NCBI RefSeq assembly: GCF_964204865.1
Contig: NC_135262.1
Location: 10,354,001 to 10,418,000, forward strand
DNA from: Styela clava
Taxonomy: Eukaryota > Chordata > Ascidiacea > Stolidobranchia > Styelidae
Length of the DNA stretch: 64,000 nt
Direction: 5' to 3'
In this document: positions 15,467 through 56,266 of the stretch, in pieces
Layout of the letters: every line of letters starts with the position of its first letter
How positions within the stretch are numbered: the stretch's first letter is position 1
Notes under the pieces: generated by a model
The model's input: the letters and a program-made list of their open reading frames with translations, nothing else
Told to the model about the DNA's origin: nothing
The model's database searches: none
Position numbers and translations under genes: made by a program

Positions 15467-15515
15467 GTCTACGTAGTAGAATAATGCAAATTACTAATGC
15501 AAACAACTACGTAAT

Positions 15516-21026: not shown

Positions 21027-22658
21027 ATGAAATCGCAATCATGCCTTGTAGATTTTCTATTAGCTCTTATGATCTTCAGTATCAATTTTATGTCAACTTG
21101 TGGTGAAGATGAACCGATGATATATAGGTAAGTATACGTAAGGTCGTATTTAAAACTAAGTAGTGAAATGAATTTATAGGGCGTTTTCTGTTCCTGGAGT
21201 TGCTATGATAATCATATTTTAATTTCGCATTTATAAGTATGATTAACAAATCAACGAAATTTATCTTTTTGAAAGGGAACAAATGTATCGGCAGTCGTAT
21301 TTATAAGTAAAAAATGGTTATTTTAATGAAGTTCATATATGCAATTCCATCTAAAGACTGGATGCTTTTTTTTTTAAAAAGATTGTTCCATTTAACATTT
21401 TTAGACCAGTAAGAAACAATTCCACTGAATTTCATTTTCGTATCCGATATTACTATTCCTTCGAATATCAACCGAGTTTTGTTCAACGAAATTGGTTTGG
21501 ATTTTTATTTTTGCGACTTTATATTTGATTTTTAGACAATCAACCAAAAGGGAAGGAGGGGGCTGGAACGCAAAACCCGTGCATATATCTCATGAGAGTC
21601 AAGGTAAGGAAAAAGAATAGAATTTTCAAAGACATTGGCATATTACATTATTTTCCGATATGCTTTCGTAATATATGAATCTCATTTGACCAAGTCATGT
21701 CTCATGAAATCGTTGCAATTTCAGTCTCTGAATTGGTATAGAACGCTTAATTGAGATCACAAATAGAGACATAAGAGGCGATTTTTTGCGACCTCTCCAT
21801 CAATTAATAAGCGAAGTAATTAAATTCCAAAATTTTGCAAATTGCTTATTTGCAAGTTAGGAATTCAACATAAATAAGTTTGAGAACAACTAATGCTGTG
21901 AGGGAAGATAGGTTTTTTTGTGGTTGATATCGAGCAAATTGCCAGTGAATAGGAAATCCGTTATATGAAACGTTTCATGTTTAACATTGTAATATTCCAG
22001 ATTATGATATTTATTTTTGTCGTGCCAGAAACACTGTGCAAATAAAACAAAAATAGATCAATATATTGATTTTCAAGATATGTGACCTTTCAGGGTTAAA
22101 GGTCACTGGTGTGTGAGAGGCTCACGGTCTACCCCAGCGTATTTGATTTGATCACACGCTCTGTGCTTCTTTATACGTTCTTTCAGGTTTCTATAGTTGT
22201 GTTCTAATCTGACTTTTCCTGTCAACTAATAAGTTGACTGTTATGAATATTGAACGCTGAATAATAAATAATGCATCTTTCATATACGTGCATTAAGTTT
22301 AGGAAGACAACATATAACGCTGCTGGTGAAACAGTCATGTTATATTTCATATCGACATCCTCAATTTCCTGATCCTTGAATATTGAGACATCCATAAACG
22401 AAAAAACATTTTGAAGCACTTTTTCTCAAAAGTCAAATAAGGATTAAAAATTTCGCGAAAAACTGTTCATCGCTATCACATTTAGTTGTATATTTTGGTC
22501 TACATGCGGTGAAAAATGTCGTCGCCAGTGATCTGCTGATTTTTGATAGTATTGTGGGGTGAGGTTAAAATACACTGTAATTTCTAAACCAGTTTTGATG
22601 TATTTCTATTCATTTTCCAGGTGAAACAATCGACATGTTTGATCGGATGGAAAATTGA
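21027..22658 (+). CDS. Secreted GGGW peptide precursor B1
   Basis: Coding exons are 21027-21127, 21536-21603 and 22621-22658, giving 68 codons plus stop, with GT-AG introns in phase 2 and then phase 1. Exon 1 encodes a signal peptide (hydrophobic FLLALMIFSINFMS, probable cleavage near STCG-ED). Exon 2 has RQSTKREGGGWNAKP, the degenerate family motif with K in place of H. Exon 3 ends IDMFDRMEN, matching B2's PSMFDKVEE. The exon 1 length, 101 nt, equals that of A1 and A2. A DR1-like site lies in intron 2. No known family is recognised. There is no polybasic site after the Trp, unlike the A genes, so the mature form is uncertain; cleavage at KR within exon 2 is possible. Confidence 0.72.
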
Positions 22659-24233
22659 TAACGCATAGATTCAGAGTGATTGATCACTGGAAACGGATAT
22701 CATTAAAATAATCAATGTATTAGTGAAAACCTATTTTCAAAGATGATGTGAAACATTATATGATTTCCATACATTTTTCACCAAATTTTAAAATTTTTTA
22801 CTCAGAACATCTTAAAAAAAATACCAAACTTTTTCAAAATCTCGAGTGTGTTTCGTTCTTATTTCAACAGAATTTTCGAGCTGCCTACAAAAACACCGGT
22901 AACTGGTAGGTGCTGTGTGTTGTACACTTAGCATTTAAAATAAAAGAAAGCGATAGAACGAAGGTCATTTCTAAAATTAGTCCCAAGTCTCCAAATGCTC
23001 CAGGCGCTGACATAGAAGTGAAATAATTGAGGGGTCAAGTGTCACCATCCATCATCCGAATAAGTTGTGGGTCGGCAATCAAAGGACACGTACGATATTC
23101 ATTCTTGTTGCAAACGCACCATGACTTCATAATAGGGTTTTGAAACTTAGCCTGTGGTGTCGAACTATAAAAACCTGCTGACTTTTCGTCGTAAGCTGCA
23201 TTATAAAAAAAAACATTCAAACTTTCTGTATATTATTAAGCACCAGTTTCAATTAGCGATAGTACATTTACGACATCTGAAATATTTTGCTCGGAGTGTC
23301 TGTTGTGATGCCATGTTTTAGCATGATTTTATGGGGCGGTAACTCTCTAAGAGTATCCACTTAAATATGAGTGATAGCTTGATTGATGTATCACTGAAAG
23401 CTATAGTGCACTTAAAGTACGAGAAGAGTTCAGGATGGTAAGGTGAATTGAATATTATCGACGTACTTTTATTGTTAAATAATAAAAAAAAGTATATATA
23501 GCTTTTAATACCATCATCGACAATTTTATAGTGACTCGAGTCCTAAATATGACGTGTCGGGTTGTTTTTACATACAAGATTGCCCAAAGCAAGATCACGA
23601 CATCCAAATAGAAAAGTGTCCGATAGGAGAACCGCAATCGACAAGTGACGAACTGGGAGCTAGATTTTCTTTTTGCGCCGAGAGTGTTGTTCTGTATCTG
23701 CATATTGTATTATATATGCGGAATTTATATTCGAAAATAATCGGCCAATGAGCTTTTGCACAGAGTGCAGGATTAGCAATAAGAGAAATTTTGAATATTT
23801 TCATTTTATTCGTTTCATATTCGATTAACTTAGCTATATTTTGCGATTTGCTTATGAAATCTAGTTGAATTCACGCTGTAGTAGTCTTGGGAGGCCCCTC
23901 CCTGACTTATGCTCGCCATAGTTATTCCTCACTTTTTTTACAAGGATTAACCGTTCCATTAAGAAAAAAAATCAAGACTAGCTAAAACCATATACATTTA
24001 GCCTACTCCGGTGAATCATATTGGTGATATTCGACCGAAACAGAGTATTTTATCATGTAAGTCGAAGCGTGATTAGGTCTAAATGAAATATTCAACGAAT
24101 GAATAATGTTTACGCAAATTTGTGCAACGATCCACATATTTCGTTTACTAAATTTATAAATATTGCTTCCATTTTTTTATCATAGTTTGATGCTTTTTAA
24201 ATATAACGAACTGTGAAAACTACTTACTTCAAA

Positions 24234-25142
24234 ATGGGACGTATGATAACCTTCAAAGCTCTTTTGTTGAATATGTTAGTACTTGTTGGGGTAATGGTTC
24301 AACTATCGCTTGCCATAAAAATTGTCGGGTAAGTTTTTTGTAGGAAATTTAAATTGACATATTAAGTATTAGTAATTAGATTCAGTATTTATATATAAAG
24401 CGAATTGTCGACGAGACGACAAAATCCACATATATAACTCAAAATACGTTAAAACAAAGTTCCTGGGATTCGCGACGTCCTCGGTAACGTAGTCTAATCC
24501 GGGTAGATTCATTGTAGAAACTGCCACAAAAATGAAGAGTATCTGTATATGAATTTCAAATATCCCCCCTTTTTCACAGTCTTACAACACATACCGGGAA
24601 CAACGGAGGTGGCTGGAACAATTTCAGAAGCGCCGAATCAGCACCGCAACCAAAAACAGGTAAGATAGTTCGTGTGGGCTATATTAAACATTTTTGCCAA
24701 AATCCATTCAATCTAAGTTGAGTGACATATTCACGCGTCGGGCAATGGAAAATTTCTGACATTTAGTCACTACTATAACGGGATGCGTTGGTGAGAAGTC
24801 TGTCATAAGGTTTTTGTACTCGCCCCTACTCGTTAGATCGTATTTGCGACAAAATAGCTTTGGATGCTTCCTAACCTCTGGCAAAACCTTTAAATCGATA
24901 TTTATTGACAAACATGCGAAATATTCAACTAGCAGGCGCTAAAATGGTAAGTGCCCAGTAAATCTCCCACTGGATTATTTGGACGTCACTAAATAAATGT
25001 TTCACTGCTATACCGCATCTTCATCACATCACATCAGTCTGTGAACCTTTGTATATATACATAGGCCTACATACATTTGATCATAGTTCTCTTGTTTTGT
25101 TCAGATGACGATCCTTCGATGTTCGATAAAGTTGAAGAATAA
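24234..25142 (+). CDS. Secreted GGGW peptide precursor B2
   Basis: Exons are 24234-24328, 24580-24659 and 25105-25142, giving 70 codons plus stop, intron phases 2 and 1. The exon containing the ATG probably starts at 24186, after TTTTTTTATCATAG, 48 bp before the ATG, almost as in B1. The signal peptide is about 1-27 (LLLNMLVLVGVMV, then LSLA). Exon 2 carries LTTHTGNNGGGWNNFRSAES: the TTH and GGGW elements of the family with a longer linker. The last exon is acidic (DDDPSMFDKVEE). AATAAA sits in the 3' flank near 25252. A poly-basic cleavage site is lacking. It is B1's closest relative by motif and last exon, but the signal peptides are diverged, so the duplication is old. Confidence 0.78.
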
Positions 25143-25456
25143 TCCGCAATCTTAAAGACTTTGTTCTTCTATTCTTCTTATAGTGATTGTGCCAACATTT
25201 CATTTACAATCGCGCTGGTTGCACATGCTTATTTTATTTTTTAAATTTCAAAATAAAATTTATTTTCCTGTGTTTTTGTCACTTGATTCCATAAAAAATA
25301 ACAGGAAAATCCTACGGCTCAAACACGTTTTATTTATTATAAGGCTACTATCATTAAATATAGCTTAGTCGGTTTCATCCGTTTAAGTGATGAAATGCGT
25401 TAATTTGAATTTATAATATTATTAACGCTTATTTGTAAGTTGACTATAGTCTAGCC

Positions 25457-28400
25457 CAGGGCTTCCCAAACTAGGGGCCGCGGCCCTGGAAGGGGCCTCG
25501 AAACGAATATTAGGGGCCGCAAAGAGAGCACCAGTTTTACACAAAGTACTATATATATCTATTATACTTTTGCAGACTCTTGATTCGAAATACAATTATT
25601 GAAAATAATGTGAAACAAATATTTCACGATTCCTAATGAACACATCATCATACTGAGTAAATAAGACAGTGTTCTCAATTTTATTTCGAAAATAACATTA
25701 GGGCTTATTTTGGGAATATGTAGAGAATAACGAGATTTTTTTATAATCCAAATATAAATACGGATTTCCATTACCTATAAATAGCACGTCTCCATTCAAA
25801 ATACCTGCTACATATAGATTATTAACCACACTGTAAAAAATATTAAGGGCGATTTACAACCAAACGCGCGGCAGCAGCGATGCCATGCACTTCGTTGTGA
25901 ACACCATATACAACTTCATGTATTGTATCGTTGCAAGCGCTTGTAATTTTACAACCAAATGTATGTACTAGGCAAAAGCAGTGGGTTGGATGTCTCCGAT
26001 TTTTACAGCCATAGCGATGCTAACCTTAACTACAAAAAGAAGTTGTAAAACTAAACAACATCCGCAAAGTAACTCGATTAACCCTCATGCCACCACCCGA
26101 AGAAATGAAATACAATTGAAAAGAAATCACTTTTAATAAAATATGTGATCAAATATCAGCAACGAAATAATATCAAATACACTCGAGAAGTGATCGTCTC
26201 CGCCAGCAAAATAGTTCATTTCATCTCTTCAAATAGGTGGAAACCATCCAAAAGATTCAACATTGCAGTGGCCCCCTGTCACTTTTTGTTGCACTGGCTG
26301 TTTATCTTGGCAATTCGGCTGAAAAAAAATGGCATAGCTGGTATAAAATGTAAACAAGTAGTTGAGTGAGAAGTCAACATATTTACATATGTTATAACTT
26401 GATCTGCTGGGGTAAAATGATTCCATTAGCAAAGTGGTAGATTCATATTATATTCAATGCTCAGAAGAAGTTAACGTTATTATAGGCTATATCATTTTTG
26501 AAGCTCGCAATTATATCATTATCTCTCCAAACAATGAAAATTGTTATATAGAAAGACAAAAAACTATGTTTGAATTTTTTTGTCTATTCATTGCGCAAAA
26601 ATCAACTTAGTGCAAGGAGGCTCACTATATATACAGTAACATGATGCTCATATTTATAAGCAAGGCTTTTTTTATTAAACAGTTAAGTCCATACCATTGC
26701 CATCGAAAAAAGAAACACCAATAGGCTACCAGTTCCTCACCTTTCCAGAAATTCTTTTGTAGTGCTGATACAATGACAGACTTGATAAGGGCCAAATGTG
26801 AATGCCCCAGAGATAAAATGGCAGGATATGTTTGTCCACTTTCGAACTGAAAAGAATTAGCAGATTGAAGATGTATGAAAATGATATAGGCCTAGGCATG
26901 AAAAGTTCATGACTGTCTACTGCAGTAGCTAATCTTGCAGTTTCACTAGAGATGTCTTTCCAGATGCATTTTATTTTAGATTAGTCTAGTTCAAATCTCG
27001 AATCAGTCATTTCAAATCGCAGGGTAACTGAAATTACAATTTTACCAGTCTGCTAATAGGCTACTGTAAATCCTTTTCTGCTTTTTAAGAATTAGGCTAA
27101 CATTGTCTGAAATTTTAAAAAATAAGAGACCTTTCTGCATTGGTGTAGACTACCTTGGTTTAGAACTCCAATAAATAGAATACCGGTAACAAAGATTAAA
27201 CATGAGCAATTAAAAGTAAAATAACAGAATATGGTACAGTAGGCCTACAATAGCTCATTGTCTAAATGCAGGGATGGGACATCTAGTACGGCAATGCTGT
27301 AGTTAACAGGCCAATCCAATTAATGCAAAATTGATTAATAATGACAGATGTGGCATAAATTAACTCACCTTCCAAAACCTGAAGATCTACCGGTAGTCTA
27401 CAAGCACCAATAGTCCAGAGTTTACAACCTAGGTAACGGTATTTCTTTCTCCATACTTTTTGTTTTACAACCTTCAGGCAGCATAGTGTAAAATATACAG
27501 GTTCACACTTTCAAACTAGGCTACTTCAGTTGTTTTCAGAGTCGAACAAAGCCAAGCTGCTTCCTAGCGAAACTGGAATCCGCACTAAACAGCCATTTTG
27601 GCGGGAAAGTACGTCAGGCTTTGGCGGAGTCAGAAAATTCAAATTCAAAATTTGAATCCGTTGCGATCTGAGATATTTCTAAAACTTAGGAGCATTAAGC
27701 AAATAGTTAAATTAAGAAAATATGCCACTCAATTTAAAATTATATTAACCAAAACATTTGCATATACTTTGGTCCGATAAAAGATGTAGCGATACAGCGT
27801 AAAACTACTAGATTCACCAGTAGTTGGAGTCGTGACTGCAAGTAGACCTGTCCGTTTGAGAATGAGTGCTGTCAGTTGAATCACCAGTTTACATGATGCC
27901 TAAAATAAAATATCCTTCCACTCGATATAATATTAAGTGCAATATTAGGATTTTTTTTATCGTAAGCTATAAATTCTATGTCGAGATGACATATGAAGCC
28001 GCAGATTTACGTAGCATTGTATGACTTGCGCCTTATGACGCGAAGCCAAATTTGTATCAGTTTGGAACCAAATTCGTCGCACCAATGTATTTTTTATTGG
28101 CATGCATTTTGCTGATAATATGTGGAAGACTGTCTTCTGAGCTCTATGCTTTTGATTACTACCAAGTGGACTCATTTTAACATAACCGCGAGATAGCTGT
28201 TTTCAGTACAGCCGTTTTTGTAAGTTACGTATAATTCATTGTATATTTAACAACCGTATGTTTGTTTTATGATTATGCAACAGTATATGTAATTTTACAT
28301 CGTACAAGCGGTGAAATTACAACACGATGATGTAAATTTACGTATAAATAGTTGCTCGTTCAAAATACTGCCAAACGATCGTTTTTTTTACAAAGAAATG

Positions 28401-29865
28401 GCTGTAAAATTACAAAAATTTTTACAGTGCATTTAAAAAGTAGAAATTTCCTGAGTACAAATTTCTTGCTATCGACTAGGACTCAGTGGTTCTCGAACTT
28501 CATTGTATTGTGACGCCCTCCAAAAATATGCTCAAGTTACGACTACCGTGAAAATACGTATTGATACCTTTCAATAAAAGACCTTCTTCGCAATGAGTTT
28601 CATATAGAGGAACAAACAAAACATACCGACAGTCAGTGAAATCATATTTAATGAGCCTTGGTAGAAAAGTCTGCTTTTTATAAAAACAAAATCGCAAAGG
28701 CGATAGGAGTCCGCAACGCTTTCTGAACCAAGAAAAATAGTTATTATCTACAGAAAACCGAATTTTCAGAATTAAACTTATTTATTGTAACACCATCACA
28801 GGTAAGATCGATATAATCTTCCCTTTTTTCTGTAAAAGTAGAAGATGTGGGTTGTTTGAAAGGTTCACGAATCACAAAATTTTGCGACGTCCTATAGCAA
28901 AGTTGAAACGACGCACTTCTACGGGATTAGGTAAAAAAAAATGCACTATCGACTAAGTCTTTTTAAAGGGGAGCGCTTATATTAAAATCATTTATAAATT
29001 TCAAGCTTGGTTTTATTTTCGGGGAAACACATTAGAATCACCGCGCTTGCATAACAATGCATATTCTGATCGTAAGACCCGATTTGCGTGTGCTTGCATA
29101 ACAATGCCGGCTTTAAAAATCGTTAAGCTAGCGGTTCCCGAAGGCGATTTGCTAAGTGCGCCTCGAAATATGTTACATATTTTATTTATTCTAAATGTTT
29201 TATTGTTTCTCATTGTTGCAAATGATGTGTATACGGATCAATTTCATTTTACTGTTCTATGTTGTGTACGCTCTGTTACGTCGGGTATCCTACATGCTGC
29301 AATTTCGTAGGCTGCAGTTTATTCATTTGCTGAACATGAGTGATTTTTTTAGCATTTTAAAGAAAAACCAGGCAGAGATAAGAGTACATATTATAAGTAC
29401 ATATTAACGATGACAAAATTGTGTTTTATTATCAGACAGCATATTTTTCGTGTAGGTGCGCCATGAGTTTTTTCCTTGATAATTTGGCGCCACACAAACC
29501 GCTGTCTTATGCTAAGTTTGATCAATAAGAGTGAACAATTCCGGAAAAAGAACCATGCCGCCGGTGGCCAGACATCGTAATTCATCATTTAGGCCTGCAT
29601 AAACAAACATTGAGCCACAAATGGACTTGCTATGCAGCAAAAAGTTTTCGCACCCATTACACTGAAAAATTGAGTAACGTTAATTTGAATAAATATGTGC
29701 TTGTTCTGTAATTGAGTAGGCCTACTAAAAGTTGAGAATTAGCTGTATCAATAAAACATCAAAAATGCATATTCCGAGCTGTTAACATTATTAGCGCGAA
29801 CAAGGGCCGCGGAAAATTTTAATATATTAAAAAGGGCCGCGAGCTCAAAAGTTTGGGAAGCCCTG
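25457..29865. mobile_element. 4.4-kb hAT-type element with perfect 8-bp target duplication
   Basis: The termini CAGGGCTTCCCAAACTAGGG and …AAGTTTGGGAAGCCCTG are inverted repeats with GGGGCCGCG sub-terminal motifs on both ends. The 8-bp target GTCTAGCC is identical at 25449-25456 and 29866-29873. No transposase-sized ORF remains. The right part (about 29190-29400) resembles the hAT family I interior at 7960-8200 (ACCAGGCAGAGAT, TTCGTAGGCTGCAG). A CAGTGGTTCTCGAAC terminus at 28485 suggests other insertions inside. It separates the B and A subfamilies of the peptide cluster. Confidence 0.92.
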
Positions 29866-30561
29866 GTCTAGCCTGTATTAGGAAAGGATTGAATCTCTCG
29901 ACCGAAAATTTTACCCGTTGCTAACATTTATTTAAATTCACAAAGACATGAAAACGTCGGAGAGGGTGTTAGATTTTTTATTTAAAGATTCAAACGGAGT
30001 GATCACATTTAACAGGAATCAGAGTTCCTCGAAATGCGTTCGACGGAGTATTTGAATTCAATATAAAAGTCAGGAAAATCAAATAATAAATAACAACTAA
30101 CAGGAGCAATTATTTTTATTTGCCAAGAACTTCCAATTTGGAAGTTGTCATTCAAACATTGTATAATATTAATATAACATAGTTTTTTCTACTTTAATAT
30201 CAAAACGAGGCATATGGAAATCCCCAAATTAAGAGAAACTAAATGGTAGGATAAAAGCTTATGAAAAGCAGCATTAGTTATTATTTACCTCCAGCTTCAT
30301 TGATTTATCTCAATGTTATATTCATCTGTATTAAAAGTATGATCCGTTTCATGGACCTGTCATTTTCTAATCATTCTTACAACTTATCAAGGTACAAATT
30401 AAATTTTGTATATTGTCAAGAGAGAAATTACCTGCATATTACTTTCAAATGATAGGGATTAATTTATAAATAGATATAATACTATGACGTGCTGCTGACA
30501 ATATGATGATTTTAATATCATTTTTGTAACGAACACAACCTTGTGTTTCTACTCAATTTTG

Positions 30562-30568
30562 TATATAA
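30562..30568 (+). promoter_or_regulatory. TATA box and CAGCTG core of gene A1
   Basis: GTATATAAGGAGCTTTCAGCTGAT-like sequence: TATATAA is followed 8 bp later by CAGCTG (30577-30582). The same pair occurs before A4 (44283 and 44298). Preceding sequence (GAACACAACCTTGTG) is also shared among A1, A3 and A4. A 5' non-coding exon is therefore expected just downstream, with the coding exon beginning after TTTCAG at about 31061. Confidence 0.5.
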
Positions 30569-31214
30569 GGAGCTTTCAGCTGATACCCATTTCGATAGGC
30601 TTGTATAGGCAATGTAATGTACGACTGTTTGAGTTGTTCGCTAGACGAGAAAATTTAAATCTGTTTGGAAGTTATTTACTGTTTGAAGTCTGTGGGTAAC
30701 ATGGGCCAGACCCCACCATAAAAGTTTACTTGAAAATAGTATCAAAATACTGAAATCAATCCTTTGGCACCATAAACCGATTTTTTAATTAGTTCACTGA
30801 TTTTTATTTGAATATGTGTTTTAATGTGCTGTGTGTATTCCACTAAATGCTAATATGTCTGTGCCTAATATACTGAAGTCTTCGAGAGCAAGAGCAAAAA
30901 ATTATGTCTTGGTTATTAATTAAGGAGTGAATAAAAAATGGCAAAATACGTCTTGTACTAAATTCGATTCTCGACTTGCTTGGCGTCTATCTGGACACCC
31001 TATTTTATTACGCGTTCCAAGAACTAAGGATAACAGTAATTTCAGTGATTAAAATTTCAGAAGCTGGATGTTAAAAATTATTTCAAAACAGAAAACTCTG
31101 ATTTTAGTTACGGGTTCCATTAAATACATTTATAATTTATTTCAATAAAAAAACTGATTGTGACGTGCTCATATTTTGCTGAAATAAAATAGATAAAAGC
31201 GATATAAATTTATC

Positions 31215-32170
31215 ATGAAGATTACATGTTTAGCGCTGCTTGTGTTTGTGTTTCTTGTGATGATGGATGGGAATTCATTGGTTGCATCAGACTCACAGGC
31301 GACAGGTTACACAGAGTAAGTCTAATGTATTCTTTTTTTTAATTTTAGGTGAAGACATGTATTTTGTCAGTTGGAAATAGATTTCGTCCAAACCACGGCT
31401 CATAAACAGGGTGATTGCGATAGAGCTTAAGCAAACTTGCGTATTTTGATAATAGAGCTTGTCACCAAATACCTGAAGTTCACATGTTTAATTATTTATA
31501 TAGCTCGATTCTTGACTGTTAGTGTTCCCTTGTAATTATGACTTATAAATAAGATAAGAATTTTCCCCAAATCTAACTCATAGTGCGATTCATATTGAAA
31601 ACTCCAGAGCAGACCTTTAGTCGCCTCAGAATATCTTATTCTTCTACAAAATACGGCCTCCCTTGGACTATTATATAGGAATTGAAATAGACTATTAACT
31701 ACCGGTGCTAATAGATATTGAACTCCAGGCCAATCTAATGAATTAGTAATTTGTCTGAATATAGTGTAGGTCCTTGTTTTTGTACAAATTTTTCATTATG
31801 ACAGAGATTTTTCTAGGGATTTTATAATTTTTTTGCACCAACGTGTCTTGTTTTACGAAATTGTATACTCTAACAGCGATTCGGTAGTCTATTCTTGAGG
31901 TTTCTTATTCTAATTCATGATTTCCCGACAGCGGCCAATCGACACATGATGGTGGAGGTGGATCATGGGGAAGAAAGAAGAGATCTTTTGTTGAAGAAAA
32001 TGACTCTGGTATTTATATTACTTATCTTTCGTACCTTGAACCTAAATAACGGATATAAAATCGGTCGAGCATGACGAATATTAAATTATTGTTTGTTTCA
32101 GAATATAAACCACTTTCTTATTCTTGTTATTCTAGATGATGCTTTAACAATCCTCGAACATCTCGGATGA
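31215..32170 (+). CDS. Secreted GGGW peptide precursor A1
   Basis: Exons are 31215-31315, 31932-32008 and 32136-32170, giving 70 codons plus stop, intron phases 2 and 1. Residues 1-25 are a signal peptide (LALLVFVFLVMM … SLVAS). The pro-region DSQATGYTDGQ leads to STHDGGGGSWGRKKRSFVEE. Gly followed by RKKR is the classic signal for convertase cleavage and C-terminal amidation, so a peptide ending …GGGGSW-amide is predicted. The downstream part (SFVEENDSDDALTILEHLG) ends in a bare Gly. No known peptide family is recognised. The splice sites (GA|GTAAGT, TTTCCCGACAG, G|GTATTT, TTATTCTAG) are good. A1 and A2 share a longer 5' UTR than A3 and A4. Function could be hormonal or antimicrobial; the sequence does not decide. 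Confidence 0.85.
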
Positions 32171-34499: not shown

Positions 34500-35211
34500 T
34501 ATTTATGTGTATAAAAAAATGATCTTTTCCGAAACGTATGATTGTCTTATCATAATTCCGACAACCTTGAGGTACAAAATAAGTTTTGATTCATTTTCTA
34601 TGGAGAAATGAACCTGCGTATTACATTCAAATGTTAGGGATCAATTTATAAAGAGGTATAATAATATGACGAGCTGCATGATCATTTATATATTGAACAC
34701 AATTATAGTCTATTCAATTTAAGTATTTGAAAAGCGTTCAGCTGATATCGAACTGAGAGATGTACGGGTCTTTGGATAGTTCATTCTTCACCACGGTAGG
34801 AATTGGTAGCTACTTGTTGCATCTGTGAAACAGGCTAGAACTAATTTTATCTAATTTAGGGTTTTTAAATTGTTATATTCCATCATAAATACATTTAACA
34901 TTGTTTAGTCAATCGAATCTAATAGTAGAAATCATCCGCTCATTTCTTGCATCTTAAATACTTTTGAAATTGGTTTCTAGAAGATAAATCACTTCTAAGT
35001 TAATCGTCTTTGTAACATTCTTATTTTTAGCCGAACTAAGTGTTAAGTCTGTAGATATCTAACTATTTCAAAACAGAAAACTCTCTTTTTTTGCTACTGG
35101 TATCATTGAACACATTTATAATTTATTTCAATGAAAAAAACATCTGTAGGCTACTTGTTTTTGTGACGTGCTCTCATTTCACCGTAATAAGATAAAAGCA
35201 ATCGAATTAGC

Positions 35212-36074
35212 ATGAAGATTATATCTTTTGCGCTGCTCGTGTTTGTGTTTCTTGTGATGATGGATGAAAATTCATTGGTAGCATCAGACACACAGGCAAC
35301 AGGTAACACAGAGTAAGTCAAGCGTGTTTTCTTTTATTTTAGAATTTTTTTTTTTCGGTGAACACATTTAGTTTATCAATTGGAAATATATTTCGCCAAA
35401 ACCACCGCGCACGAACAGGGTGATTGAAATAGCTCAAGCAGACTTCCGTATTTCGATAGAGCTTGTCCCCAGTTGACCTGCTATTCCTGCAGTTCGTAAG
35501 TTTAATTATTTCAATTAGTAAATTGACACTAACTGAACGTTTACGACTTGACGTTATGTAGCTCGACTGTTACTTTGACATTATAGCTTATAAATTATGC
35601 GATTGCTATCTAAAATCACAAGACAGATCTTTTTTGCCTCTGAAAGTCCTATTTTGATTCTTTTTTGCATAGGAATTAAAATATTAGTTACCGGTACTGA
35701 TATATATTGAACTCCAAGTCGATCTACTAAATTATAAATTGTTCACAATAGAGTGTAGTTCTCTGCTTTTCCACAAGTTGTTCATGCGTTCGGGGAAATT
35801 TTCCTAGAAATTCAATAAAGTTTTTTCACATCTAGCATTCAATCGACACATACTGGTGGAGGTGGATCGTGGGGAAGAAAGAAAAGATCTTTTGTTGAAG
35901 AAAATGACACTGGTATATTTCTTATCTTACATTTTGTATATTGAGCATAAATAACGGATATAAAATCAGTTAAGCATGACGAATATTAAATTATTGTTTG
36001 TTCCAAAATATAAACTATTTCTTATTCTCATTATTTTAGATGATGCCCTACCTATTCTCGAACATCTAGGATGA
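35212..36074 (+). CDS. Secreted GGGW peptide precursor A2
   Basis: Exons are 35212-35312, 35836-35912 and 36040-36074, giving 70 codons plus stop, phases 2 and 1, the same exon lengths as A1. The signal peptide runs to about residue 25 (FALLVFVFLVMM … SLVAS). The core is STHTGGGGSWGRKKRSFVEE and the end is DDALPILEHLG. Compared with A1, exon 2 differs at only three residues (G/I, D/T and S/T), while introns and flanks are more diverged; this suggests constraint on the core. The upstream exon probably ends at ACG|GTAGGA (34795), and the acceptor TTATTTTTAG ends at 35030. The TATA box seen in A1, A3 and A4 is changed here (AAGTATTTGAAAAG), so expression may be weaker. A SINE sits about 200 bp downstream. 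Confidence 0.85.
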
Positions 36075-36272
36075 TAGAAATACTCAACAATATAGTCCTG
36101 AAAAATATTTCGTTTCCATTGATTTTTTCGACTCATATTTATACTGTATATTAGATAATACGTTGACACTGCATTGTATGATTTTACATTATGTTGAATA
36201 TTCATTCATATTGGTCAGGTTTTTGTTTCACGCCCAAGCCCGATCAAGAAAGGGTTTACCACGAATTGTGGA

Positions 36273-39602: not shown

Positions 39603-41405
39603 TCCAACGCAGAAGTCTGACCCATCTTGACATCTCAGTATCTCGCGGCAGTCACATTTCAATCGATCAACTGAAATTCTACAATTTACAAACAGAAGGA
39701 ATGGGTATGATCGAAGAAACAGTCTTGCAATTAATTTCCATTTTGCCCTCAAACATATGCAACATACAGCCACGTTCCTGAAAATAATCTATACATACCA
39801 AACCATACGTTACATTCAAACCAGCAAACCATATCTTTCTACATAGTAGGCTACAAAAACAGAATCAATGCGAACCTCAAACCAATCACACCAGAATAAG
39901 TCTGATTGGCGGTTCGAAAACAGTCATCACAGGCTATCGAATCAGAATTTTCAGCTTCGATCGGCGATGATATAAAAAACATAATCAATGTGTGCAAAAG
40001 TACTCCCAGTAACAATAAGAATATGTCATCAACAACAACAGAGGACCGTCATGCTACTGTATTAATAAGAGCATGACATTCTTTCCCGTAGTATCATCAC
40101 AACTTTCATTCTATTCTTCAACGTCACGGAGTTGCCGTTATGAACTCGGTCAGAGATAAAAGATCAAAGATCCGAATAAGTTCAATATAGTACAATTTAA
40201 ATCAATCAACTATTAGGAATCAGATGTATTCGGTATCGATGAAGAATGAGACCGAGTTATCCCCTTGAATGTAGATCCATTTAATAGTAATGATGTTTAC
40301 ATCAGTTTTTCATTTTGAGCCGAAAGTCTTTGGTATTGTGGTCTGTACGTCTATGATACCTTGCTATATATGTTCCAGCAGGAAGACAATTTTGCTCCGG
40401 ATCTGACAACGATTAACTTAAATTGTGGCTTTATGTGTTTTTATTTTTATTTCTGAATAAAATTTATACTTATACTCATGTATTTATTATTTATATGAAG
40501 AGAAAAATAAGCCAACTTGAAAATTCTACACAAAAATGTTATCTCAATTGATTTATAAGTTACTCCTATTGAATATAACTCAATTTTTCTTAATTGGTTT
40601 AATGGAAAAATGTGCTTATTTGAAACTAAATACTCATCCATAAATATTTCTGACTCTCATTTGGTATGAAGTTGTCAAGTTTATGGAATAATAACGTGAA
40701 ATGGACATGTGTGCTACCACAAAATCTGAAACTTTGAGTTATCATCTCTTCTATTTTAAGAAGACGTTCAATGAAGAACCCAATATGACAGTACGGAAAA
40801 GTTTTCTTTCCTAATAAAACAATATTGTCTATTATATGCCATTTACAAAATGCTTTTAGATCAGACAATCAAAAACTGACCAAAATTATTGAAATTGAAA
40901 TCAATAAAATTCGTATGTTATATATATAAAGATTCGTTTGTTCGCCAGATTTTAAATTAGAAGTTGCTTTTTAAACATTATATAAATATATCGAATTTAT
41001 TCCCGTTTCCACATTATTAGATCTAAATGAAGCATACAGTATTGTGTAATTAAAGTATATTGGATGATGGAAAAATAGCCATTAAAAAGCAGCTATACTT
41101 ATTTCAGCATCATCGATTTGCAAATTGTATTATGATGAATTAATCGTTTACTCCAACATTATATTTGTTTGTATCAAAAAAGGATTCGTTTTTACAAACC
41201 AGTCTTTTTCTAATCGTTATTAAAACTGTGAGGTACAAATTAAATTTTTTATAATTTCCAATTGAGAGATGAACCTGCATATTACATTGAAATGCTAGGG
41301 ATTAATTTATAAAAATATATAATAGTATGGTGAGCTTTTGACAACATGATTATTTCCAAATCATTTTTGTATTGAACACAACCTGGTAGTTTTACTCAAT
41401 TTATA
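39603..41405. other. Duplicate of the A1-A2 spacer
   Basis: Diverged copy of 32700-34400 without the hairpin MITE. It includes the exon-like block at 40379-40416 followed by a poly(A) signal (GAATAAAA, about 40455). Reading frames open in the other copy are broken here, so coding function is unlikely. Confidence 0.35.
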
Positions 41406-41413
41406 TATATAAA
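41406..41413 (+). promoter_or_regulatory. TATA box upstream of A3
   Basis: TATATAAA in the promoter block shared with A1 and A4. CATCTG replaces CAGCTG at the downstream position. The predicted 5' exon ends at ACG|GTAGGT (41477), and the next exon begins after ATTATTTTTAG (41831). Confidence 0.45.
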
Positions 41414-41863
41414 CAGCATTCATCTGATATCGAACTGAGAGATGTACGGCTCTTTGAATAGTTCATTCTTTGCTACGGTAGGTTATGTTAGGTATTTGTT
41501 CCTTCTATAAGAGAGGCGATAACATTTAATTCTCCTTAAATCTGGCTATGACAAACGCAGAACCGCACAATAAAGATAAAATATTATCAAAATAGAAAAA
41601 TTCGAGCTTTGACATCAAAATCCAATTTTTAATATCGTTTCTGATTGTATCTAAATGTGTGTTTGCGAATTGTTATATTTCACTTTAAATACATTTAACG
41701 TTGTTTAGTCAATCGAAGATAACAATATAACTGTTTTGGTCATTTCCTACTCCTTAAATAAATTTGGAATGTTTTTTGGAAGATAGAACACTTTTTAGTT
41801 AATTGTCTACTGTCTGTAGTATTATTTTTAGCTGAACTGCGTTTAGAGCGATAAAATCTTACA

Positions 41864-42741
41864 ATGAAGTCTACATATTTTGCGCTGCTCCTGTTTCTCA
41901 TCCTTGTTATGATGAATGAAAATTCAATGGAGCATCTGACGTTCCTCAAGGAGTAGGAGGAGGCAGAGAAGACAAGTAAATCAAATAGATTTCATTTTTA
42001 GTTTGCAAAATTTATTTTAGCGAAGATACAGTTTTTTTTTTAATTCAAAATAATTCGAAAAGACCTCTATTTCTATAAAGCGTGCCATTATGACGTAGAT
42101 CTTCCTCAATATATAGCGCATTGATTCAGAATGCCATTCATATTCAAATCTACAAAACAGACTCCATACGTCTCAAAAACCTATTCGTCTACAAAATGTG
42201 TTATTTCAAACTTTTTATAGAAGTTGGAAAAGACTATAAATACCGGTGCATATAGATACTGAACTCTCCGTCGATCTACTAGATTGGAAAATGATTTTGA
42301 TTTATTTACAATAGAGTATAGATTCTTGCTTTTCTGTAAAACCTCCATTCTGGCAGTCATTTTTCTAGCGGTTTTTCAATAAATATTGGCTTATGTGTCG
42401 CCGATTTACAGCGGTTTGCTAGTCTAGTTATGAGTTTATTGATTCTAATTCATTTCATCACAGTGGTCAATCGACACATAATGGTGGAGGTGGATCATGG
42501 GGAAGAAAGAAACGATCTTTGGTTGAAGAAAACTATCCAGGTGCTTGTTTTTGACTTTTCGAAACTGGAATATGGGTAGCGAATATGAACTTAAATATAT
42601 ATATCTAATATATTATAAACTTGATTAGTATTAAAATAGAAATTTATTAAAGTTCAAAATCGAGTCAGTATATATGGGAATAAAACAGTTTCTTATTTTA
42701 TTTTAGAGGATGACTCACCAGTTCGCGAACATCTTGGATGA
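41864..42741 (+). pseudogene. GGGW peptide precursor A3, 1-bp frameshift in exon 1
   Basis: Exons by comparison with A4 are 41864-41975, 42464-42540 and 42707-42741. Exon 1 is 112 nt and lacks one T relative to A4 (AATGGAGCATCTGAC against AATGGTAGCATCTGAC, at about 41929). The frame therefore shifts at the end of the signal peptide and meets a stop about nine codons later. Exon 2 still encodes STHNGGGGSWGRKKRS, exon 3 is identical to that of A4, and all splice sites are intact, so inactivation is recent or is a sequencing error. An AATAAA lies in the 3' flank (about 42835). Confidence 0.75.
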
Positions 42742-43492: not shown

Positions 43493-43579
43493 ATGAAGAT
43501 TTCGATCGTCTTATTCGTCTCTACTTCCACCTGCATAGGCCGTTTGTCGAGCTTCAAAGCTCTAACCGATCGGCAATAA
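43493..43579 (+). other. Short hydrophobic-start ORF repeated at 49937
   Basis: A 28-codon ORF beginning MKISIVLFVSTSTCIG. The same DNA block recurs at 49937-50035 as a 33-codon ORF beginning MKFSIVFTCIG, with shared upstream sequence (ATACTAACGAGTACGT-like). It could be a leader exon of a further secreted-peptide gene or simply a spacer repeat; both frames close without a clear splice donor. Weak. Confidence 0.2.
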
Positions 43580-44282
43580 ATCCATCTTGCTCAATCAGCA
43601 AACATCATTGTGGTGGTTAAATAAACGATATAAAATTTTTACGTTTTATTTATTTTTTGAATAAAATTTATATCTCCGTGTTTTTGTTATTTAAATATTA
43701 TTATTTAATTAAATTCTATCTGTAAAATGTTTTAAATCAGACAATCAAAAACTGACGGAAATAACTGAAAATGAAATCAATGAATAATGCAATCGCTACA
43801 TGTGTAACTCTTCCGGTTTGTTTATTTGTCCGCTTTTAAATTAGAAGTTGTCATTTTTATCCTTATATAAATATAATAAATTTATTCCTAAATGGAGCAT
43901 AGGAACACCCTGAAATTAAAGTATATTGAATGAAGTAAAAATAATATATAATTAAAAAGCAGCTTTACTTATATCGACCTTCAGCATCATCGATTCGCAA
44001 TTTGTATCATGATGAAATATGATTTACTTTAACATTATATTTATGTTTATCAAGAAAAGGATTCGTTTTACAACCTAGTCTTTTTCTAATCATTCTTACA
44101 ACTGTGAGGTACAAATTAAATTTTGAATCATTTTCTATTGAGAGATAAAGCTGCATATTACATTGAAATAGTAGGGATTAATTTGTACAAACATATGATG
44201 AGTATGACGAGCTGCTGACAACATGATAATTTCCAAATCATTTATGTATTGAACACAACCTGGTAATTTTACGCAATTTATG

Positions 44283-44290
44283 TATATAAA
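44283..44290 (+). promoter_or_regulatory. TATA box and CAGCTG core of A4
   Basis: TATATAAA followed by CAGCTG at 44298-44303, the same arrangement as A1. The predicted first exon is non-coding, ends at ACG|GTAGGT (44354), and joins the coding exon after TCTTATTTTTAG (44713). Confidence 0.5.
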
Positions 44291-44745
44291 CAGCTTTCAG
44301 CTGATATGGAACTGGGAGGTGTACGGTTCTTCGAATAGTTCATTCTTTGTTACGGTAGGTTATGTTAGATATTTGTTCCTTCTATGAGAGAGGCGATAAC
44401 GTTTAATTCTCTTTGAAGTCTGGCTATGACAAAAGCAGAGCCGCGCAGTAGAAATTAACCTAACAATATTCTCAAAATAGGGCACTTTGTGCTTTAACAT
44501 CAAAATCCAATTTCTAATACCGTTTCTGATTGTATCTGAATATGTGTTTTTTTGAACTGTTATATTCCACCTTGGAACATTTAACGATGTTCAGTCAATC
44601 GAAGCTAACAATAAAACTCTTCTGGAAATTTACTACCCCTCAAATAAATTTAGAATGTATTTCTGGAAAATAGAACACTTTTAAGTTAATTGTCTATGTA
44701 GTCTTATTTTTAGCTGAACTGCGTTTAGAGCGATAAAATCTTACA

Positions 44746-45609
44746 ATGAAGACTATATATTTTGCGCTGCTCCTGTTTCTCATCCTTGTTATAATGGATG
44801 AAAATTCAATGGTAGCATCTGACGTTCCTCAAGGAGGAGGAGACAGTGACGAGAAGTAAATCGAATATATTTTATTTTCAGTTTGTAAAATGTACTCCGG
44901 CGACAATACATTTTTTTTTAATTTGAAATAATTTGTTGTTCAAACTGCTGCTCGTGATCAGCGCATTTGCAATAGAATCTTTGAAAAGACTTGTATATTT
45001 CAAATAAAAATAACTGATTGTTTACGAATTGGCGTTTATTCAGCGTGTAATTACGACTTACTGTTTTTTTTAAACATTTCTATAGGAATCGGAAAAACTA
45101 TAAATACCGATGCAATGGGGTACATATAGATACTAAACTCTCTGTCGATCGCAGACTAGCGGATAATTTATTTGCAATAGAGTATAGATTCTTGCTTTTC
45201 TACAAAACTCCTATTCTGGCAGTGATTTTTTTAGCGGTTTTTTGATAATTATTGGCTCCTATGTGTCGTGGATTTACAGCAGTTTGCTAGTGTAGTTATG
45301 AAACTTATTGATTCTAATTCATAATTTCATCACAGTGGTCAATCGACACATAATGGTGGAGGTGGATCGTGGGGAAAAAGGAAAAGATCCTTAGTTGAAG
45401 AAAACTATTCAGGTGCTTTTTATTTGACTTTTTGAAATTTGAATATGGGTAGCGAATATGAACTCAAATATATATCTAATATATTATAAACTTGATTAGA
45501 AGAGAAATTTAATATAAAGTTCAAAATCGAGTCAGTATATATGGCAATAAAACAGTTTCTTATTCTTATTTTAGAGGATGACTCACCAGTTCGCGAACAT
45601 CTTGGATGA
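44746..45609 (+). CDS. Secreted GGGW peptide precursor A4
   Basis: Exons are 44746-44855, 45336-45412 and 45575-45609, giving 73 codons plus stop, phases 2 and 1. The signal peptide is LLLFLILVIMDENSMVAS, with probable cleavage after VAS (about 25). The pro-region DVPQGGGDSDENGQ differs from A1/A2, but the core STHNGGGGSWGKRKRSLVEE is retained. KRKR replaces RKKR, so the polybasic site is conserved in nature while the codons change. The end is EDDSPVREHLG, again with a terminal EHLG. It is an intact sister of A3. The 5' exon, TATA box and splice signals are conserved with A3, and the spacing A3 to A4 (2.9 kb) is the shortest in the cluster. Confidence 0.85.
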
Positions 45610-46920: not shown

Positions 46921-47169
46921 TCAGTCGTTATTTCCGCAATCCCCACCACAGAAACATAGTGGTGTACATGCTAAATCAGCACGGAAACATTTGCAGCGAG
47001 CAGCACAACCTCTCTTGCAGCCACAATGAATCAGCCCTGTGCAAATTTTTGCTGCTTCAGGGATAGTCATCCATCTTGGTAAAAATATGTCTCCTACTTT
47101 TTCCCATCCCCATCTCTGTCCATCAGGTAAAGTTTGTGAAACCTCTGTTGCTTTGCTCCAAATAAACAC
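46921..47169 (-). pseudogene. Fragment of a CXC-type cysteine-rich protein, likely transposon-borne
   Basis: The 82-codon reading contains RWGWEKVGDIFLPRWMT, then ICTGLIHCGCKRGCAARCKC, then LACTPLCFCGGDCGNND. The CGCKRGC-x3-CKC … CTPLC-x-C-x3-CGN pattern resembles the tesmin/TSO1-like CXC tails found at the C-terminus of repetitive, retroelement-like proteins in many invertebrates. The N-terminal remainder is missing: upstream sequence in frame is closed by stops. It is probably the 3' end of a truncated element and not a host gene. Confidence 0.5.
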
Positions 47170-50100
47170 ACCTTTAGTGATGAGTAATTGATTAAATATC
47201 TCACAAAAATTCGGCTTTGCATATTATTCATTATTTCTCTGTTAATTACTTTCAACATGTTGCTTTCCAAAATATAAAGTTATTGGACACGTAGTGGACA
47301 GTTTCACTATTATGTTGTTGTTAGAATTTTTCTTCCTGTTGTTGTTGTTACCTTTATAAAAAAAATCGATTGCTTTGAAAATTTCAGTGGTTAAATATTA
47401 TATTTTTCGCCAGAAGGCTATTACTTTTATATATTCCTAAATTTTCTGTGAATCATATGAGAACTGATATTTCATACAAAATTTTGCGGTTTTGAATCCG
47501 CCAAGCGTGACAACGTTTCCGCACATAAGGGAGCTACCTGAAAATCATTTTAAAACGCTCTTTAGAAAAAGACGTTTTACGAAAAAGACACTTCTACTGC
47601 AAGAAATATATTATGTTCTATATTCTCTGCTTTTCCGACAACCATGGCCAATGAACTCAGACTTCTGCATGATGTAACAAATAAAATTTGATCAGCTGTA
47701 GACGGTCGGATGAATCTCACATCTACTGCTCGCTTTTGCGTTGAGTTGGGTAGCCCTTCCTTCGTCTTTTTTAGTTATCAGTAGTTAAGTTATTCTAAGA
47801 CAATGTTAAAAAGCATAAGTAAGCTATTAAGCAATTGTAAATCCTTACCTTGAATAACAGTCTTATTTGAGCACTAGCTCATGAATCGTTGTTAAATAGA
47901 TACCGTACGGTTGCTTCAAGGAAGGCTAGACCTAGAGAGATATGTCATAAATAACGATTTTTTCATGCTTGTATGGGAGGTTTATGACTAATTTAATAAC
48001 AATTCTTGAGTATTCAGCAGACTTATACTCCTATATAGGCTAGAGCATCTTTGATTCAAAAATAATGGCCGTTTGTGTAATGCACGTTTATGAGAAAGAG
48101 GGGAAAGTAACCAATTTTACTGGACATTCCAGACTGTGAGATTGGTCGAGATTCAGTGTAGATGGAGTATAGCATGCGAACACTGCAGGACTGTAGTACA
48201 TCAGATAAAGAAGAAGTCTTTAAGAAAACTGTAACGGTATATAAGAATCATATCAATTGTAAACAGTTTAAATAGGCTTTTCATATTAAAATACATGGCA
48301 TTCTTCTGCACCTGATGAGAATGAGGATTTCGAAAGCAATTAAAAAGCAATTGTTTTTTTCTCAGACATCTGTTGGCGTCAAAAGTCCTGTTTCTATAAA
48401 TATTATTGCTTTTGTTTCAAATACACAACCACATAAACTGAAAAATGACTAATTGAAATATTTCTGTTCACATGTTATGCACACACTGTATTCCTTTTTA
48501 TTTTCTTGACTTTTCCATGTAAATTTCTCAGTGAGAAATAACCGATTTATTTGTTATTTGTACTCACGATGTTCCTGGGGTTATTGATTTTCGAGGAATC
48601 TCTTTATATCCAATTTTGCATTTGGAATTTTGAAGCATGTTTTACAAAAAAAAAATGTGCAACTTTCGTTATTGGGAACAAGCTGTAGTGCGTTCAGTAT
48701 GTGCATTTTCATTCAAAACTAAAGACTTATTCAGTTACCACATGTGCGCTACAAAGTTCACTTCCTGGGCGTTTTTCATGGGGTTCGTCTCACGGCCTAT
48801 TTGTTTTAGATTTCGTGTCCATATATTTGAGCATCTCTCTCTTGTATTTCTGTAGTTATTGGAGTGAACATACATTGATTTAGTCTTTGATGGTGATTAT
48901 GCACGTCTATGTACTTACATGTTTTAATCTTCTCTGCTTCTGTTGGTTTGCACCGTTCGAGAAAAGAATTATAACATCTAGATAATGTATAAAATTAAAA
49001 CCATGCTTAATATTTTCCGTCTTCATTGTTATGTTGTGAAAGGATTCTTTTGTTTATTACAGGCGTGGGAATATCGATAAGATGACTCAATCATGTACCA
49101 CTTCACAAACCACGGACATTCGGTTATCAGCCCTAATTAGTCGCGAGATTAGCCAGGTAAACTAGTTTAAATACGGGGACAGTGATCGGGAGGTTATTAA
49201 TGGCCCTTCGTATATTGCACCAATGGCCGAGTTGTTTGATGTAATTAGACCTACTTACATAACAGATCTTAGGTTTCTGACCTCTCGGAGTAATTCCGAG
49301 AAAAGCACCCTTTGATCAATAACAGAATAGCTAAATTACAAATCAACAAAAATTGTTCCCCAGAATACAAATCTATTTGTAATATCAGAAGTAATAAAAG
49401 TACATAAACAATCTCAATCTTAACTTTGCCAATATTTTTTTTAAGCTGAACCATATAAGTATAAAAACTCGTACTTAGTAGAATACCAATATTTTTAATT
49501 GATTTATCCTTGCAATAAACTGGTAAGACGAGCTACAATATTAGCACGACAAACAAAAACCCACAAATCCTTTAGGTTGAATTATTTAATGAAACGTTCA
49601 CTCGAGAATAATGTTACGAGAATACATTTAGGAACGCTGCAATTCCCATGAATTAATCCAAAATAAACAAACACACAATCCAGAATGTCAAACGAAAAGT
49701 GCTCCAAGTGCTCAAACTAAACGGTGCTAGTTGGTCGTGTAACAGGTTAACATTAATAGGCGAAACGGGCAAGCGACAATTCTTCTGATAACGTCATGAT
49801 AATAGCCATGTTACAGATTTGTTTCGCGGACCCTCCGAAAGAGCTTCACCGACCCCAAAAGGTCCCCAGTTTGGGAACCACTGAATTAACCGTATACATA
49901 TAGAAAAATACTAACCAGTACGTCCATAAATAAAACATGAAGTTTTCGATCGTCTTCACCTGTATAGGCCGTTCGTTGAGCTTCAAATATCCAAAACCTA
50001 TCGGCAATAAATCCATCTTGACCTTGGGGGTGTAATGACGTTGACCGTATTAGTATTTATTTACGCCTTGACTCAATGATAGCCAGAACAAATCACGTGG

Positions 50101-54500: not shown

Positions 54501-54906
54501 TGGCATTGATAAATTGGAAACCCGACATTTTTTTTAATACGATTTAAAAAAGTCAACTATCGTTTCATAAATATCCGTATACCAGTGTCCGTAATGATAA
54601 AATTGATCGCATAAAATTGGGACGGTTAATTTGCGAAGGTGATAAAGGAAATCAAAGCTAGCGCAAAAGATAAAAATCAGAATAAAATTAATTTGAATTC
54701 ACTCTTGTCTTAACATCTGTCGCCGGCGTGTAGTACTGCCAGGCATAAAAACCCAAACTCGATGTCCCAATCGAAAATGAAGTGGATTCAATTGGTTGTT
54801 ATGATAGGTTTAAATGTGTGAAAAAATATCGCAATTACGGGGTCATTACGTAATCGATTTGGCCGTAATTACGGAATTGATTTTTATCAATTACGTGCAA
54901 GCCTAG
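51580..54906. mobile_element. 3.3-kb hAT-type element with TAGGCTTGCACGTAATT ends
   Basis: The 17-bp terminal repeat TAGGCTTGCACGTAATT is exact and inverted at both ends. The flanks GTATGGAT (left) and CTATGGAT (right) fit an 8-bp target duplication with one change. The ends continue with ACGGAATTA-type sub-terminal repeats. Inside, AACAACAATATGACGGGATT and following bases occur twice (51643 and 51772). No transposase ORF is present. It lies between A4 and the C gene of the peptide cluster. Confidence 0.85.
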
Positions 54907-55248
54907 CTATGGATAGTAGTAGAAAGTAGGTAGCTTTAATAAATTTCGTCAAAGATTTAAACCGAGATTTACCAAGTTTTGAAAACATTTTTCCTGAAAA
55001 GTCTTAATATAAAACAAACAAAATATATCGGTATGAATGTGAGAATTTGGTAGGTTGCATTACTCTTCATTAAATAAATGACAATGAAAGAATATAAATT
55101 TTGAAATCTTCAACTGCTAACTCAAAGATATTTGTAATAATATATATATTGATAAATAATATTATTAGCTATAATTTTCATTCTTCAAGTTAGATTTATA
55201 ACATTTGGAATCCTCCATTTATATTTCTTATATATATGAGCATCAAAT

Positions 55249-56266
55249 ATGAAGCTTGCTTGGTTTCTAGTTCTCAGCCTTGTGTTCATGGTGGTTTTAA
55301 CGAAAAGATCGTCGATGGCGTTTGCACGAGGAAGTTTTCGTCCAGGGCGCGTAGGGTAAGTAATTTTGTTCGTTTAAGTCAGAGATGGGCAAACTGTATT
55401 CCACAGGGTACATAGGGACCACCAAAGCATATCTGCAGCCCCTTGCTCTGGAAAAAAAGTGTGAACATTCCCTACAATTCATACGAAATTTAGATTTTTT
55501 GTTAAATGAATTGGATTGTTAAAATAATATTAACACTGTATAGCAAATAAGTAATGGTTACAGATTTTGATGATATTTAAGCCCCCTTGTTTAATGTTTA
55601 AACGCAAGAAACCTCTGGTTTAAGTTATTGTTATTTTTCAAGATCTTTGGGGCATCAGGATAATAATTTAATTAACGTGATTTCACGATAGAAAACTAGA
55701 CATCATAATATCATTTGTCCGATTGTGGCTCACAAAAAATATCAGTGACTATTGCCGAAAAAATAACTACACAAAAAGTTACCAGTATGGATTTTCATGC
55801 TTAATTCAAATCATTTCGTTCATTTATGTTTTTTTTGCTGATAATCTATCCATGATAATAAATATAAATCACTACTCTCAAAATTATTATCAAATATTTA
55901 AAATTGAATAAAATGCTTATCGGCAATCCCATTTGATCACAGTCAAACGACACACAGACGTGGAGGAAATTTATGGGGGAATAAAGGACAATTTACCAAC
56001 GAAATCATCGAAACAGGTATAATAACTATATTCGCCAATAATTCTTCAATTTCGATTATATTATGACGTAACTTTGAAATGAATGTTCCCATTCTCTATC
56101 TAATATATATTCCATATTTTTCTATGTATTTAATAGTTTCCGATTTTGAACAAATAAATTGGATATATATATATACTTTTTTTAATTTTAACAAGTTGAA
56201 AACAATGTAGAAATATTTGTTTCCATTTTAGATGACGAAGTACTAATTCCTGACAAGTTTTCGTGA
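55249..56266 (+). CDS. Secreted GGGW-like peptide precursor C (diverged)
   Basis: Exons are 55249-55355, 55943-56016 and 56232-56266, giving 71 codons plus stop, intron phases 2 and 1 as in all other members. The signal peptide is WFLVLSLVFMVVL, with cleavage near SMAFA. Exon 2 carries GQTTHRRGGNLWGNKGQFTN: TTH, glycines, W and G are kept, but the polybasic site after Trp is replaced by NK and an RR precedes the glycines. Exon 3 is DDEVLIPDKFS, 35 nt as in the A genes. The acceptor before the coding exon (TTCATTCTTCAAG) lies about 55-60 bp upstream of the ATG. Homology rests on gene structure plus motif, since overall identity is low. Confidence 0.72.

Follow-up and report, generated by a model that had tools for sequence, protein, structure and literature searches.

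What do the seven small split genes clustered on one strand of the Styela clava genome encode? The window, the whole stretch of DNA that we analyzed, is 64,000 nucleotides (nt) long and lies on contig C17 of a genome with 376.6 Mb in 379 contigs (C4, C17 and C112 are working contig labels). An initial annotation, made from the letters of the window, had described there a cluster of genes for secreted peptides that shared a (S/T)TH...GGG...W core and belonged to no family that it recognized. We named these copies g1 to g7 by their order in the window, and further copies on C4 were named g8 to g10. The sequence evidence points, with a probability of roughly 0.58, to an orphan family of secreted prepropeptides, most of which would be cut and amidated. 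The family has at least ten copies, which form one cluster on each of two large contigs.

Sequence reading and scripted gene models confirmed seven starts, 21 exons and 14 introns on the + strand at the positions first proposed. The exons are as follows.

21027..21127, + strand: g1 exon 1, predicted signal peptide and phase-2 donor (model; allele on C112)
21536..21603, + strand: g1 exon 2, core, without a basic site past the Trp (model, profile, C112 allele)
22621..22658, + strand: g1 exon 3, acidic tail (rank 1 of 27 candidates; same in the allele)
24234..24328, + strand: g2 exon 1, predicted signal peptide (model, C112 allele; alternative in-frame ATG at 24243)
24580..24659, + strand: g2 exon 2, core, without a basic site past the Trp (model, profile, C112 allele)
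25105..25142, + strand: g2 exon 3, acidic tail (rank 1 of 31; same in the allele)
31215..31315, + strand: g3 exon 1, predicted signal peptide (model, C112 allele)
31932..32008, + strand: g3 exon 2, core with Trp-Gly-Arg-Lys-Lys-Arg (model, profile, C112 allele, genome pattern)
32136..32170, + strand: g3 exon 3, acidic tail (rank 1 of 35; not found on C112)
35212..35312, + strand: g4 exon 1, predicted signal peptide (model)
35836..35912, + strand: g4 exon 2, core with Trp-Gly-Arg-Lys-Lys-Arg (model, profile, genome pattern)
36040..36074, + strand: g4 exon 3, acidic tail (rank 1 of 25)
41864..41975, + strand: g5 exon 1, broken by a frameshift and a stop (model)
42464..42540, + strand: g5 exon 2, core with Trp-Gly-Arg-Lys-Lys-Arg (model, profile, genome pattern)
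42707..42741, + strand: g5 exon 3, acidic tail (model; identical to g6 exon 3)
44746..44855, + strand: g6 exon 1, predicted signal peptide (model)
45336..45412, + strand: g6 exon 2, core with Trp-Gly-Lys-Arg-Lys-Arg (model, profile)
45575..45609, + strand: g6 exon 3, acidic tail (rank 1 of 35)
55249..55355, + strand: g7 exon 1, predicted signal peptide (model, ATG ranking)
55943..56016, + strand: g7 exon 2, core with Trp-Gly, without a basic site (model, profile)
56232..56266, + strand: g7 exon 3, acidic tail (rank 1 of 31)

Across g1-g7, exon 1 measured 95-112 nt, exon 2 68-80 nt and exon 3 35 or 38 nt, and all 14 introns had GT...AG borders. Six of the seven genes had an open frame with intron phases of 2 and then 1; the exception, g5 (41864), carried a frameshift and an in-frame stop within exon 1 while its exons 2 and 3 were clean. 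The precursors of the six intact genes are 68, 70, 70, 70, 73 and 71 amino acids long. Their predicted signal peptides all had a best 12-residue mean Kyte-Doolittle hydropathy of 2.66-3.46 together with -3/-1 sites, and no Cys was found after the assumed cut in any of the six. The tail encoded by exon 3 had a charge of -3 to -5 in each intact gene and, except in g1, started with D-D or E-D-D.

Could such a pattern arise by chance? The expression [ST]T[HK]x(2-6)GGx(0-2)W matched seven times in the six frames of the window; in 200 dinucleotide shuffles the mean was 0.025 matches, and no shuffle had more than 1. When profiles were made from the exon 1 and exon 2 sequences of the seven copies, they detected only these seven loci in the window below an expect value (E) of 0.1. 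Since the last exons had originally been picked by eye, we ranked them against all AG-started, in-phase terminal exons that measured 20-70 nt and lay no more than 1.3 kb from the core exon (25-35 candidates for each gene). The proposed exon 3 ranked first by similarity to the other family genes in all six intact genes, the reference for g3, g4 and g6 being g1, g2 and g7 only. Similarly, the proposed ATG was the most hydrophobic start in five of the six (2-7 candidate ATGs each); in g2 a second in-frame ATG, 9 nt further on, scored equally. The observation of seven loci, the fifth of them broken, was confirmed, and the models, GT-AG introns, phases and both sets of statistics bear out the claim of split genes for apparently secreted peptides.

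We then asked which positions are common to the family. All ten copies had Q/L/M-(S/T)-T followed by a Trp, and in seven of them (g3, g4, g5, g6, g8, g9 and g10) the Trp opened a Trp-Gly-(R/K)(K/R)KR site. In secretory biology, a run of four basic residues like this is a proprotein-convertase site, and the Gly ahead of it an amidation donor. The motif of the initial annotation was present at the seven loci but was too narrow: the core His was found in seven of the ten copies, was Lys in g1 and was missing in g8 and g10, and is not a family feature. These replacements bear on the proposal that the peptide is secreted to bind metal through a Thr-His and Gly-Trp core, akin to the neighboring vanabin-like genes. 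His lies beside Gly and Trp in seven of the ten copies and vanabin-like genes are located no more than 10 kb upstream of g1; however, no ligand was conserved throughout, the His being replaced in the three copies named, and proximity to unrelated genes counts for little. We consider metal binding quite improbable.

The second cluster came from genome-wide searches. A whole-genome query with g3 (E up to 10, 11 candidates) returned g3-g6, the allele on C112 and two places on C4 with E-values of 0.10 and 0.18, located 8.9 kb apart; by simple arithmetic, two independent chance matches would lie so close in 376.6 Mb about 5 times in 100,000. Both C4 genes, g8 (+) and g9 (-), had the full three-exon plan with phases 2 and 1. 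Their first exons were 101 and 110 nt, respectively, the second exon was 77 nt in both, equal to that of g3-g6, and the last exons were 65 nt (g8, acidic) and 50 nt (g9, mixed). In g10, also on C4, exon 2 had the right phases and Gln-Thr-Thr in the expected place. The genome query with g9 recovered the exons of g9 itself, followed by exon 2 of g3, g4, g5 and the C112 allele (E 0.02-0.23). A DNA pattern encoding Gly-x-Trp-Gly-Arg-Lys-Lys-Arg had seven matches in the genome (g3, g4, g5, the C112 allele, and g8, g9 and g10 on C4), while the reversed pattern, used as a control, had one. The count of at least ten copies refers to genome queries with g2, g3, g9 and g1 as DNA, plus this pattern. No further core exon was detected by profile in the 100 kb on either side of the window, where one weak exon-1-like match (E 0.034) stood without a core exon, and the 6.1 kb that separate g8 from g9 contained no further copy. 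The Trp-amide reading was weak on the close copies g3-g6 alone and gained support once the C4 copies were found. Both the Trp-Gly-tetrabasic site and the C4 cluster go beyond the initial annotation.

From this site we infer how the copies that carry it may be processed. The signal peptide would be removed, furin or another proprotein-convertase enzyme would cleave behind the four basic residues, a carboxypeptidase would trim these residues, and PAM would convert the exposed Gly into an amide. The predicted mature pieces of g3, g4, g6, g8 and g9 are 21-25 residues long with a charge of -2 to -4 and a Trp end, so that the product would be an acidic, glycine-containing peptide with a Trp-amide end. 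The other 19-30 residues, after aiding secretion or holding the core inactive, would be discarded. Most likely the released peptide would act extracellularly, either in signalling or in defence by blood cells; furin is reported in the morula-cell granules of one ascidian in the available part of PMC9966394. Without the site, g1, g2 and g7 would have another active form, perhaps through a cut ahead of the acidic tail. These three copies also suit a different proposal, in which the basic site is an ancestral relic and the uncut precursor acts as a component of tunic, egg coat or mucus, a role for which glycine-rich sequence would presumably be suitable. On the other hand, the basic site is common to copies on two contigs that otherwise differ almost everywhere, and we regard the relic proposal as improbable.

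Contig C112 (22.5 kb) allowed us to compare the genes with what is probably the alternate haplotype of the window region, the alternative being a duplicate. C112 was 94% identical to the window over positions 20351-25842 and 28430-32045; the 2.6 kb between those stretches was absent and the vanabin region was partly reordered. It covered g1 and g2 completely and g3 through exon 2, the match stopping just inside g3 intron 2. Gap bases occurred at none of 598 exon sites and at 54 of 2719 intron sites, and all 11 covered splice sites were kept. We counted 10 replacement and 5 silent coding differences (pN 0.021, pS 0.040 for replacement and silent sites, respectively). This comparison supports the reading frames, with only moderate constraint.

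Within the window, a unit of ~2 kb has been duplicated in tandem to give g3-g6. The unit takes in an upstream block common to all four copies, and three of these blocks have a TATA-like box. This block is a possible promoter.

30301..30585, + strand: g3 upstream block common to g4-g6, TATA-like box near its end (possible promoter)
34500..34841, + strand: g4 copy of the upstream block, with a degraded TATA-like box (repeat comparison)
41159..41523, + strand: g5 copy of the upstream block (repeat comparison)
44020..44400, + strand: g6 copy of the upstream block (repeat comparison)

The closer tandem pairs, g3/g4 and g5/g6, were 71-84% alike by blocks. Among the four copies exons 2 and 3 were gap-free and the introns had many gaps; the exon 1 length of g3/g4 differed from that of g5/g6. 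The coding parts of g1, g2 and g7 had no DNA similarity to other copies at E 0.001. Closer tandem pairs, more diverged copies (g1, g2 and g7) and one broken copy are all present, in line with the initial annotation. Between g5 and g6, intron 2 was 94% alike, exon 3 was identical and intron 1 was 76% alike, a pattern that could reflect gene conversion at the 3' end.

To assess constraint, we determined the ratio of replacement to silent change (dN/dS) for the intact close pairs, which have common branches and hence are not independent. The values were 0.26 for g3-g4, 0.28 for g3-g6 and 0.54 for g4-g6, and the excess of silent change (one-sided Fisher p of 0.0018, 0.0001 and 0.068, respectively) was significant in two of the three. 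With exons 2 and 3 only, it was significant in three of five pairs (p 0.004, 0.003 and 0.007; 0.20 and 0.054 for the others). Purifying selection is therefore clear in two of the three dN/dS comparisons. Positive selection was unsupported, all ratios (0.26-0.54) being below 1, and the earlier suggestion of fast evolution does not hold in that sense. The interpretation offered by the initial annotation was partly supported; the comparison it drew with immune, venom-like or reproductive peptides is conjectural.

Does the family have known relatives? A search of 5.8 billion proteins with the family alignment gave nothing at E<=10 (174 candidates), and neither did one with g3 alone (2 candidates); the search requires shared 5-residue words, so that distant kin may escape it. 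In Pfam, one of six members had a chance-level match (SMIM43, E 0.012), and the PDB gave only matches of E 0.45 or worse, to TRPV2 chains. There was no match for the peptide family in NCBIfam and none in phage records, and scans of the window with Rfam (gathering thresholds) and for tRNAs found nothing. The family that the initial annotation did not recognize has no relative beyond chance level in the protein, Pfam, NCBIfam and PDB searches. The available main text of the Ciona neuropeptide atlas (PMC12441681) had no match to amide, Trp or Wamide; its peptide list sits in the supplement. Five core strings of the family had no match in the searched literature. With Trp-amide ending strings, the matches listed included crustacean RPCH, other invertebrate peptides and unrelated uses.

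Precursors of amidated neuropeptides and hormones, including Trp-amide AKH/RPCH, consist of a signal peptide, a bioactive segment, Gly with basic residues and a discarded tail. The same plan is predicted for our family, where Gly with a polybasic stretch occurs in seven of the ten copies. Compared to amidated precursors in general, the family would have a single segment per precursor, 21-25 residues long and acidic, and the searches made gave no match to a named amidated-peptide family. In AKH/RPCH the core Gln stands directly behind the signal peptide, whereas in g3, g4, g6, g8 and g9 there are 10-14 residues between the assumed cut and the core Gln or Met.

The acidic tail led us to consider antimicrobial precursors like the ascidian styelins and clavanins, in which a signal peptide and an active middle piece are followed by an acidic tail cut at D or DD. 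The predicted order of parts matches the one given in the available part of PMC7387483 for linear cationic helical antimicrobial peptides of Ciona, and the same part places the cleavage of styelins and clavanins ahead of D and DD, as could occur at the D-D or E-D-D of the five window tails. Ci-MAM, Ci-PAP, styelins, clavanins and botryllin are, like the predicted precursors here, short secreted ascidian precursors with a signal peptide, a core and an acidic C-terminal part, and the Ciona study screened precursors of 50-100 amino acids (PMC7387483, available part). However, with the cuts assumed, the middle piece was cationic in just two of the six intact genes (charges -1, +2, -2, -1, -2 and +4) and was Gly-rich; the family core is mostly neutral or acidic and is not a cationic helix. 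In addition, the Ciona candidates are described in the part of PMC7387483 available as lacking basic processing motifs, while a tetrabasic site is present here in seven of ten copies. The protein and Pfam searches gave no similarity of the family to a named ascidian antimicrobial peptide. Botryllin, with 158 amino acids and a mature-peptide charge of +11.2 (PMC9966394, available part), is larger than the window precursors (68-73 amino acids) and strongly cationic. The precursor may be made like those of ascidian antimicrobial peptides, yet it fails a defining feature of that group, a cationic core, and we find membership among them rather unlikely. Tunicate blood cells also contain halocyamines and related modified peptides, tetrapeptides of which some contain dopa (available parts of PMC3039461 and PMC10817596). 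These resemble the family as small tunicate peptides; they are set apart by these descriptions rather than by gene comparison.

Several observations weigh against a family of cut and amidated prepropeptides. The genes are known here from DNA alone, and the signal peptides were assigned only from hydropathy and the residues at -3 and -1. The basic site is absent in three of the ten copies (g1, g2 and g7), and copies can be retained without it: g1 and g2, which lack it, stay open on C112. The 3.5 kb of C112 past the match gave no exon 3 of g3 (tblastn, E up to 1); the g3 allele may therefore be cut short or C112 rearranged. On C4, the E-values of g8 and g9 from the g3 query are weak taken alone; their last exons were picked by eye from 31 and 28 candidates, respectively; that of g9 had no acidic excess and was unranked against its 28 alternatives; and g10 is known from exon 2 alone. 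The genome query with g3 did not recover g1, g2 and g7, that with g9 did not recover g8 and g10, and that with g2 recovered only g2 and its allele. Three of the points above, namely the broken g5, the missing exon 3 of the g3 allele and the reliance on DNA, would also be expected if there were no functional genes here, only relics or chance open frames. Against this stand the motif and last-exon statistics, the frames and splice sites kept on C112, the dN/dS values below 1 and the second cluster, and we judge it highly improbable.

The window contains other genes beside the cluster. Two tandem genes for secreted proteins rich in Cys-x3-Cys lie upstream of g1. One, at 17811-19219 (+) and spliced from four exons, matched Pfam Vanabin-2 (PF11437) with E 2.1e-10 and 41.1 bits against a cut-off of 25; the earlier copy, from 11650, has a frameshift in exon 1. 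Positions 7700-20000 contain a tandem duplication of ~6-7 kb with two-copy repeat families that are 95-99% alike. Vanabins are known from phlebobranch ascidians. Among named proteins, the best matches of a single-exon open gene for GBA2 (non-lysosomal glucosylceramidase) at 777-3419 (-) were from tunicates, namely Ciona intestinalis (60%) and Phallusia and Clavelina (57%). In a tree of 12 proteins chosen from 120 listed, with no named stolidobranch among them, the window protein grouped with two transcript proteins (support 100/100), and fell outside a group formed by Ciona, Phallusia, Clavelina and two other rows (100/98); the tree suggests that the host is not a phlebobranch and would suit a stolidobranch ascidian. 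A Cys-rich open frame at 46921-47223 (-) had no Pfam match up to E 1 and resembles part of a transposable element.

For the biology of the group, we tentatively raise the possibility that the ten copies represent a new tunicate family of Trp-amide signalling peptides in two clusters, and hence a new chordate ligand system, in which some paralogues may have dropped the site and gained a second, uncut role. Short split genes of this kind can easily escape both gene finders and six-frame peptide searches.

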